Assembly: GCA_012744475.1 (NCBI GenBank)
Contig: JAAYBV010000067.1
Location: forward strand, 1-64,000
Direction: 5' to 3'
Length of the DNA stretch: 64,000 nt
Source: Phycisphaerae bacterium
GTDB lineage: Bacteria > Planctomycetota > Phycisphaerae > Sedimentisphaerales > Anaerobacaceae
The notes under the pieces are model-generated. The model saw only the letters and a list, made by a program, of their open reading frames with translations, was not told the origin of the DNA and searched no databases. The position numbers and the translations under genes are program-made. Below are positions 41,552 to 43,913 of this stretch, piece after piece (position 1 is the stretch's first letter; every line of letters begins with the position of its first letter).

Positions 41552-42412
41552 TTACGGCTTCTGGACCTGGCCCGTCATGGGCACAAACCGGACGGGCATG
41601 ACCTCCCGCCGGTCCAGTTGCCCCTTGGCGTCTTTTGTGATCAGGATCAGGTACTGAAAACCGATCTCGTTGCTGACGGGCAGGATCATCCTGCCCCCAG
41701 GCTTGAGCTGCTCGATCAGCGGAGGCGGAACACGGTCGGCGGCGGCGGTGCCGATGATCGCGTCGAAAGGCCCCTTCTCCGGCCAGCCGTAGAATCCATC
41801 CCCTGCTCGGACGAAAACGTTCAAGTATCCCAAGTCCTTCAGACGTACTCTCGCTGTCTCGGCGAGCGTCTCGACGATCTCGACGGTGTAGACACGGCGA
41901 GCGATCTCGGCGCACACGGCAGCCTGGTAGCCGGACCCCGTCCCAATCTCCAGGACGACGGCGTTCGGGTCGAGCTTCAGGGCCTCCGTCATGAACGCCA
42001 CGATGTAGGGCTGGCTGATGGTTTGACCTTCTCCGATAGCCAGCGGATTGTCGTCGTACGCATTCCGTTGCTGGGCCGTCGGAACAAACGCGTGCCGGGG
42101 CACGACCTGCATCGCCTTGAGCACGTTCGGGTCTTTGACTTCGCGGCGACGAATCTGCAGATCCACCATCCTCTGGCGATCCGCAACCCGCTCGCCGAAG
42201 GCCCTGTGACTGTGGTCGGGGCGGCTCGATTGCGTCTCATTCGGTTCGGAAGCCCCCTCCTGCTCTTCGGTGCCCTGGTGTTCGGTAACGGAAAGCGAGA
42301 CCGGTTCCCTTGCCGTGTGGCGACTGAACCAGAGAGACAACAGCAGCACCACGGCGAAGAGGAGTCCAAAGTGCTCGCGTGGGCCTATCTTCCTGCGATT
42401 CGTAGCAGCCAT
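41552..42412 (-). CDS. Membrane-anchored protein-L-isoaspartate O-methyltransferase
   Basis: A 286-aa protein. An N-terminal extension of about 75 residues has a basic start, a transmembrane segment (HFGLLFAVVLLLSLWF) and a charged linker. It is followed by a PCMT domain with motif I VLEIGTGSGYQAAV, RHAFVP and LKPGGRMILPVS. PCMT repairs isoaspartyl residues using S-adenosylmethionine. Positive-inside topology would put the catalytic domain outside the cytoplasm. The ATG at 42412 is nine bases behind a G-run. An in-frame ATG at 42418 is possible. The cofactor supply outside the cell is the open question. Confidence 0.85.
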   Translation of the reverse strand: MAATNRRKIGPREHFGLLFAVVLLLSLWFSRHTAREPVSLSVTEHQGTEEQEGASEPNETQSSRPDHSHRAFGERVADRQRMVDLQIRRREVKDPNVLKAMQVVPRHAFVPTAQQRNAYDDNPLAIGEGQTISQPYIVAFMTEALKLDPNAVVLEIGTGSGYQAAVCAEIARRVYTVEIVETLAETARVRLKDLGYLNVFVRAGDGFYGWPEKGPFDAIIGTAAADRVPPPLIEQLKPGGRMILPVSNEIGFQYLILITKDAKGQLDRREVMPVRFVPMTGQVQKP

Positions 42413-42548
42413 GGCCATATCCCCCTGCGACAATCCTGCGTATCTAATGGATACGATGATCGCTACGACTTTGTGCCCCTATTGTATGTTCGGGCCGAAT
42501 GAATTGCACGTCCAAATCCTGCGTTGGGCCATCGATACTTGCGGCCAT

Positions 42549-42720
42549 GTGTCTGTGAAACTAACCTGGCAGCCGTGTGGCAGCGGCAAGCGCAGGCTTG
42601 CCGATGGTGATACGCATGCCATCGAAGCCATCGGCAAACTCCGCCTTGCTCCGTTTGCCGCTGCCACACAGGGCGCTCCGTGGTGGAAAACGGGCCTTGC
42701 CGCGAAATTCGCACAGACAC
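42549..42720. mobile_element. 172-bp MITE-like inverted-repeat element, copy 2
   Basis: Termini GTGTCTGTG (42549-42557) and CACAGACAC (42712-42720) are 9-bp inverted repeats. The element is flanked by direct repeats GCGGCCAT at 42541-42548 and 42721-42728, an 8-bp target-site duplication. It holds the 94-nt core (42576-42669) shared with copy 1 at the start of the window. The core is an imperfect palindrome with 14-bp inner inverted repeats. It has no coding capacity, so mobility would depend on a transposase elsewhere. Confidence 0.75.
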
Positions 42721-42872
42721 GCGGCCATCCTACCGGGACTTTTTTGATGAAAAGGCGGGGGCGGACGTCTATAGTTGAGACAGGCTTCGGTGCGGCCGGA
42801 GTCCGACGTCGCGGTCGCGTCCGTGCGGCCGCGATGCCCCATGCGGGTTTCCGACAAGAGGAGATCGACGTC

Positions 42873-43913
42873 ATGACGTGGTCCACAGTCCTTTCTCTGC
42901 TCGTCGCGACCGTGGTTCTTCTGCCGAGCGCCCAGCCGAGCAGACCGGTGGCGCCCGATTCAGGATCACCCCGCGTGGTCCGCCTGGCAATTACCCCAGC
43001 GCAACTCGGCGCCGCCAAGTCGCTGTCGCTGCTTCCCAGGTCCGAGGAACTGACCGATGGCGACGGAGCAGAGTTATACGCCAAGGCGGTACAGGCCCTT
43101 CCGCAAGGGCTGAAGACCGATCAGGTGCAGCAATGGCTCGGCGCGCCGCTGGATGAACTGCCGGCGGCGGACGTGCAGGCGATTCTCCAGCAGGCGAAGA
43201 CCTCCCTGGAGTTGGCAAGCCAGGGCGCCAAGTGCAAAAGCTGCGAGTGGCCCCCCTTCCAGTCGGGAACGATGCCCGCCGGCCTCAGCGGATACCGCGA
43301 TTTGGCGCGTCTGCTCTGTCTCCGCGCGCGTCTCCAGATCGCGCAGAGGCAATATGACGATGCGGTCGGCACGATACGGACCGGTCTGGCGATGGCCCGC
43401 CACGTGGGACAAGGCCCGACCGTCGTGCAGGGATTGGTCGGCGTCGCGATCGCAGCGATGGTGCTTCGCTGCGCCGAGGACGTGGCCCAGGCGCCGGGCA
43501 GTCCGAACCTCTACCATGCCATACAGGCGCTGCCGCGTCCCCTGATCGACCTGAACCAGCCGATCTCGACCGAGCTGAAGAGCCTCGACGCGAACTCACA
43601 ATACAGCGAGGCGACGCGCAACATGATGCGAAGACAGATGGAATCCTCCTTCGACCGGGTCCGCCAACTGATGAACCGGCTCGACGGGACGGTCGCAGCA
43701 ACCCAGCGCATCGAGGCGCTGCGTCACCACGTCGCCATGCACGATGGCTCGCTTCCCGCCCGGCTTGCCGACATCGCGGACGTGGAGCTTCCCGCCGACG
43801 AGAAACCGTTTGTGTACCGCCTCGACGAATCGAAGGCCGTGCTGGAGGTCTCGCCTCCCAAGGGCGGCCGATCCAAGGACGCGATCCGCTACGAAATCAC
43901 GGTCGCCCGTTAG
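42873..43913 (+). CDS. Exported helical protein related to the HAAS-like paralogues
   Basis: A 346-aa protein with a signal peptide (about 1-24). It lacks the HAAS-like domain but shares the pattern of the exported part of the 27849 and 31544 proteins: ELYAKAVQALP, a short helical-repeat section (IAQRQYDDAVGTIRTGLAMA, then VVQGLVGVAIAAMVLRCAEDV), and a C-terminal RIEALRHHVAMHDGSLPARL. AGGAG precedes the ATG by nine bases. It is convergent with no regulator nearby. Function unknown. Confidence 0.65.
   Translation: MTWSTVLSLLVATVVLLPSAQPSRPVAPDSGSPRVVRLAITPAQLGAAKSLSLLPRSEELTDGDGAELYAKAVQALPQGLKTDQVQQWLGAPLDELPAADVQAILQQAKTSLELASQGAKCKSCEWPPFQSGTMPAGLSGYRDLARLLCLRARLQIAQRQYDDAVGTIRTGLAMARHVGQGPTVVQGLVGVAIAAMVLRCAEDVAQAPGSPNLYHAIQALPRPLIDLNQPISTELKSLDANSQYSEATRNMMRRQMESSFDRVRQLMNRLDGTVAATQRIEALRHHVAMHDGSLPARLADIADVELPADEKPFVYRLDESKAVLEVSPPKGGRSKDAIRYEITVAR

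Follow-up and report, generated by a model that had tools for sequence, protein, structure and literature searches.

Results

The window, by which we mean the whole 64,000-nucleotide stretch analysed here, carries at 42549-42720 a 172-bp element (copy 2) that is intergenic: the gene on one side runs on the minus strand (ORF 41552-42433), and the gene on the other runs on the plus strand and probably starts near 42873. Its 9-bp ends, GTGTCTGTG at 42549-42557 and CACAGACAC at 42712-42720, are flanked on the left (42541-42548) and on the right (42721-42728) by the 8-bp target-site duplication GCGGCCAT. The element is a MITE with ISKra4/ISMich2-like ends and a REPIN inside in the standard orientation, and is read on the plus strand as a left arm (42549-42574), a 95-nt core (42575-42669) and a right arm (42670-42720). 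The core is the REPIN, formed of REP a (GTGTGGCAGCGGCAAGCGCAGGCTTGCCGATGG, 42575-42607, plus strand) and its inverted partner REP b (42628-42669, minus strand). The inner inverted repeats at its borders, 42575-42595 and 42649-42669, pair over 21 nt at 90%, including 15 perfect nt that lie in REP b at 42655-42669. Folded as RNA, the 172 nt form a near-complete hairpin (MFE -90.6 kcal/mol, z -6.9); an Rfam search returned sub-threshold chance hits only.

Copy 1 occupies positions 1-130 on the minus strand, with its left arm at 105-130, the start of its right arm at 1-9 and its REPIN at 10-104, on the plus strand and thus reversed relative to its arms. The window begins at base 1 of contig C46, so copy 1 is truncated where the assembly broke within the repeat. 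Its left arm is 23/26 identical to that of copy 2, against 17/26 for the best match elsewhere in the 64 kb, and the first 9 nt of its right arm are identical at 8/9 positions. With the arms aligned, its core matches that of copy 2 at 91/95 positions when reversed and at 55/95 when read directly, and the match across the arm and the end of the core has a BLAST E value of 4e-11. An earlier note on this DNA had described a MITE-like, possibly mobile element with 9-bp terminal repeats, an 8-bp duplication and a long hairpin fold, and had reported that core and arms are oppositely oriented in the two copies and that the left flank of copy 1 (1-10) matches the reverse complement of the right flank of copy 2. 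The measurements above, together with the many duplicated copies described next, bear out this description, with mobility in the past.

The surrounding genome (5.75 Mb in 118 contigs, 99.6% complete) yielded at least 40 scored MITE copies out of 143 candidates, and 80 stretches were dissected for this survey. The copies fall into two size classes, 172 and 184 bp, and the family is short, non-coding, bounded by terminal inverted repeats and dispersed in many copies. Perfect 8-bp duplications flank many of them (for example CGGACGCC, CACACTAC, GTCCGCCC, GCGAAACC and CACACTCC), and two copies fit a 9-bp duplication better. A pattern search with the left end matched 77 places in this genome; five congeners had 5-19 matches each, and the reversed control pattern gave 0 matches. 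In many copies the contig stops about 125 bp after the repeat begins.

A search with a reversed-core copy recovered six reversed-core sequences (C34:7453, C79:36705, C80:164328, C46:1, C66:1 and C17:1). Copies at contig ends were tallied as separate inverted loci only where their flanks differ; C46:1 and C17:1, whose flanks GGCGTAAGT and GGCGTGAGT agree at 8/9 positions, may be a single copy split in two, and the reversed loci therefore number five or six. The tabulation proposed in the earlier note finds both orientations, with duplicated flanks at many copies.

The outer layer has a plausible source in the same genome, where the search for a transposase with matching ends, also suggested in the earlier note, located a 1516-bp IS through a left-end pattern match at C50:114528 on the minus strand. 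This IS (C50:113013-114528, minus strand; L116:1514-3029) has the same ends as the MITE: its left end, GTGTCTGTGAAGAAATGCTGGCG, matches the family consensus of the left arm, and its right end, AAATCTGCACAGACAC, carries the terminal CACAGACAC of the right arm. It is flanked by the 8-bp duplication CACCTTGC and is the single intact copy in this genome. Orthologues of 1516 bp lie in G005 (duplication CGATCGGC, protein identity 96%) and in G003 (duplication TGCGGCGG, protein identity 77%), and in G001 the IS ends lie on two contigs, both with AAAAAATG, so that matching ends and duplications are found in four species. The best of the NCBIfam models hit by the transposase is ISKra4 (E 3e-46, 158.4 bits); since this score is below the curated 205-bit cut-off, we call the IS ISKra4-like and do not assign it to the family. 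The transposase also matches Pfam UPF0236 (E 1.5e-10). Its coding sequence is split over two overlapping frames, an arrangement that three species have in common, with a frame change of +1 or -2. Movement of the MITE arms by this transposase in trans is most likely, judging from the matching ends and duplications; against it stand the single intact copy of the IS and the sub-cut-off score of its transposase. An IS256-family IS, split over two contigs (C43:21949 and C100:9), was rejected as the MITE partner: its ends, GGATATCTTTCGCACATT, differ. We also observed a second transposase gene on the contig of the window but outside the window itself (C46:97542-98666, L218), whose product is 40% identical to the partner transposase.

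The inner layer belongs to a different class of element. The MITE core has the organisation of a REPIN, two inverted REPs able to form a hairpin, and such REP doublets also occur without arms (L033, L035, L038, L043, L055, L056, L062, L068 and L072). Over the length of the core, L055 is 90% and L038 85% identical to it; arms should remain recognisable at 85-90% identity, and we infer that these armless doublets moved or were gained alone. One RAYT gene (C22:1650-2216, L128) scores 101.9 bits against NCBIfam NF047646 (cut-off 80) and is the sole gene in the genome above the Pfam Y1 transposase cut-off; the RAYT model gives weaker, sub-threshold matches at C77 and C32. REPs of the core type lie on both sides of the C22 gene, one about 70 bases upstream, of the same type as REP a, and one just downstream. 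The congener G002 has two RAYT genes, which adjoin REPs of its own type. RAYT may act on these REPINs, to which it is linked by association only. The REP pattern gave a single match in one uncultured Phycisphaerales contig in one pattern scan of genome contigs. A further doublet, L058 (C25:139359), mixes one class-2 and one class-1 REP, which suggests that REPs can be exchanged between classes.

Arms of the MITE do not always hold the same REPIN. Congener arms carry a second REPIN class (L136, with duplication AAATAGCG, and L132), and in G002 arms of the same MITE type hold a different palindrome, of the GTCATTCCCGC type (L224, with duplication CAAAAACC, L225 and L223). REPIN-less arms of about 75 bp were found in G005 (L181, 75 bp, with the perfect duplication TCGCATGC), in G001 (L188) and at two places in the genome of the window (L229 and L110, the right end of L110 being degraded), and all four have in common the junction CCTG|CC(A/G)CAC. 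Next to a filled relative, the unit missing from these empty arms is asymmetric: it comprises the hairpin and, to the left of it, a few further bases. The empty junction contains CTG micro-repeats, and a simple slippage deletion between them would produce an identical junction, so the empty arms may also have arisen in this way. A bolder reading makes the two layers cooperate: the IS transposase would spread REPINs as cargo while RAYT inserts and excises them, on single-stranded DNA, at a preferred CCTG in the middle of the MITE, so that arms would lose their REPIN again and again, take up REPINs of other classes and now and then be re-oriented. We regard this cooperation as possible but rather doubtful.

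The first MITE family also forms part of a larger structure. In many copies a second family of 229 bp, holding a class-2 REPIN, directly adjoins the first on its left, with GCCGAGCGA as the joint (L088, L091, L101 and about 20 contig ends). When left ends of the second family are compared with right ends of the first family, eight pairs share 8- or 9-bp duplications, where 0.007 would be expected by chance; the composite of about 400 bp has therefore moved as a unit. Composite copies break many contigs, and their matched end pairs could be used to join contigs. In one composite, L099, the left MITE is without its class-2 REPIN, with the junction ATATCGTG|CCACCC.

Both core orientations are found inside near-identical arms, and copy 1 raises the question of whether contigs broken by repeats had arms joined to the wrong cores. 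Copy 1 does lie at a contig end, as do the many other copies that stop within the repeat. However, three complete reversed copies are found in the interior of contigs 47-173 kb long (C34:7453-7624, C79:36705-36876 and C80:164328-164498), that on C79 with the perfect duplication CACACTCC and that on C34 with a 7/8 duplication, and the reversed cores have diagnostic bases of their own. With a perfect duplication around a reversed copy inside a contig, the reversed core is not an assembly artefact in our judgement, and such an origin is exceedingly improbable.

The reversed state could also be a separate RAYT-mediated insertion of the REPIN, in the opposite orientation, into empty arms. REPIN-less arms exist, the same arm position holds different REPIN classes across copies and species, and the CT dinucleotides at which TnpAREP enzymes cleave (PMC8266576) include one in the empty junction CCTG|CC. 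Yet that junction implies an asymmetric unit with its tail on the left-arm side, and the reversed copies retain the left-arm tail there (GGCAGGC or GGCAGCC). Their borders are identical to those of standard copies, exactly as inversion within the repeats, unlike re-insertion, would give, and standard cores share 95-99% identity with the reversed core. We consider a separate insertion unlikely.

The history of the inversion was read from core and arm trees built on 77-95 columns. In the core tree all reversed cores fall in one branch (support 87/87), and orientation is tied to a core allele, with 29/30 standard against 0/5 reversed copies (Fisher p 1.8e-5); the allele of the reversed cores is otherwise found in only one standard-orientation copy. 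In the arm tree the reversed copies are spread over more than one branch (three changes), although the AU test does not reject a single branch (p-AU 0.17), and L092 has older arms than the remaining reversed copies. As the arms do not form one branch, a second inversion or an exchange between copies is possible.

The earlier note had gone further and suggested that the element could be internally invertible. In an active switch of this kind the core, bounded by the inner inverted repeats, would keep flipping in place and perhaps alter the expression of neighbouring genes. The 15 perfect bp of inverted repeat at both core borders, the presence of both orientations in the genome and the scatter of the reversed copies in the arm tree are what such a switch might leave. 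Frequent flipping would, however, mix the alleles of the two orientations, whereas the reversed cores form one branch and orientation follows the core allele, and we hold an active switch to be very unlikely. Since the reversed cores are one branch tied to one core allele, one old inversion followed by amplification suffices. A single old inversion, after which both forms would have been amplified, fits these trees and alleles, and a live switch is unlikely. Of the claim of the earlier note, the inner inverted repeats as breakpoints stand, in that reversed cores share the standard borders, with a perfect length of 15 nt in place of the 14 given there; a continuing inversion is not supported.

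Discussion

A unifying model based on these data is a two-layer non-autonomous mobile element, with a MITE outside and a REPIN inside, to which we give a probability of about 0.83. The outer layer would be a MITE moved in trans by the 1516-bp ISKra4/ISMich2-like DDE IS, which makes 8-bp target duplications. The inner layer would be a REPIN of the REP type that flanks the RAYT gene of the genome, RAYT having presumably put in or removed REPINs. The core would have inverted once, through exchange between the 15-bp inner inverted repeats, and ordinary MITE transposition would then have spread both core orientations. Mobility in this model is read from its apparent products in the sequence, namely the copies, their duplications and the filled and empty arms.

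MITEs, REPINs, the IS and inversion are each known. What is new is their nesting together with both candidate enzymes, the empty and filled carriers and the inverted sub-lineage. A literature search, with most subscription papers outside its reach, found no work on MITEs of the ISKra4 type with REPs inside. In the current view (PMC8049555), REPINs persist alongside a single RAYT that is inherited vertically; here they are carried by a DDE transposon, and a single genus offers candidates for both enzymes, carriers with and without a REPIN, and several REPIN classes. Questions of REPIN movement and insertion site become directly testable on empty versus filled carriers.

As in known REPIN/RAYT systems (PMC3116915; PMC8266576), the core is a hairpin of two inverted REPs, occurs in many copies and is of the type that flanks the RAYT gene on both sides. 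The asymmetric unit missing from the empty arms, which we know from REPIN-less sites, is similar to the 5'-tailed excised REPINs that Bertels and Rainey described (2011; PMC3116915). In contrast to those systems, one set of REPINs here sits inside a transposon of another enzyme class, and the tag before the palindrome is GTGG-like, as opposed to GTAG. The outer layer is like the MITEs of DDE IS of the ISKra4 family, ISMich2 group (PMC3942029), in being short and non-coding, in having ends common with an autonomous IS and in making duplications of one length. The partner IS also resembles the ISMich2 group in that two overlapping frames encode its transposase, but in that group two ORFs are joined by a -1 frameshift (PMC3942029); its own frame change, conserved in three species, is +1 (or -2), and its score is below the curated ISKra4 cut-off. 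Finally, REP dimers in Anabaena variabilis and H. neapolitanus regularly lie inside a longer palindrome (PMC3733652), and the REP doublets described here likewise lie within longer palindromic sequence. That palindrome was given no transposon identity, and none was described without REPs, whereas the host here is a MITE that has duplications and a partner IS and is also found in REP-less forms. This comparison suggests what the unexplained palindromes that surround REP dimers in other bacteria might be.
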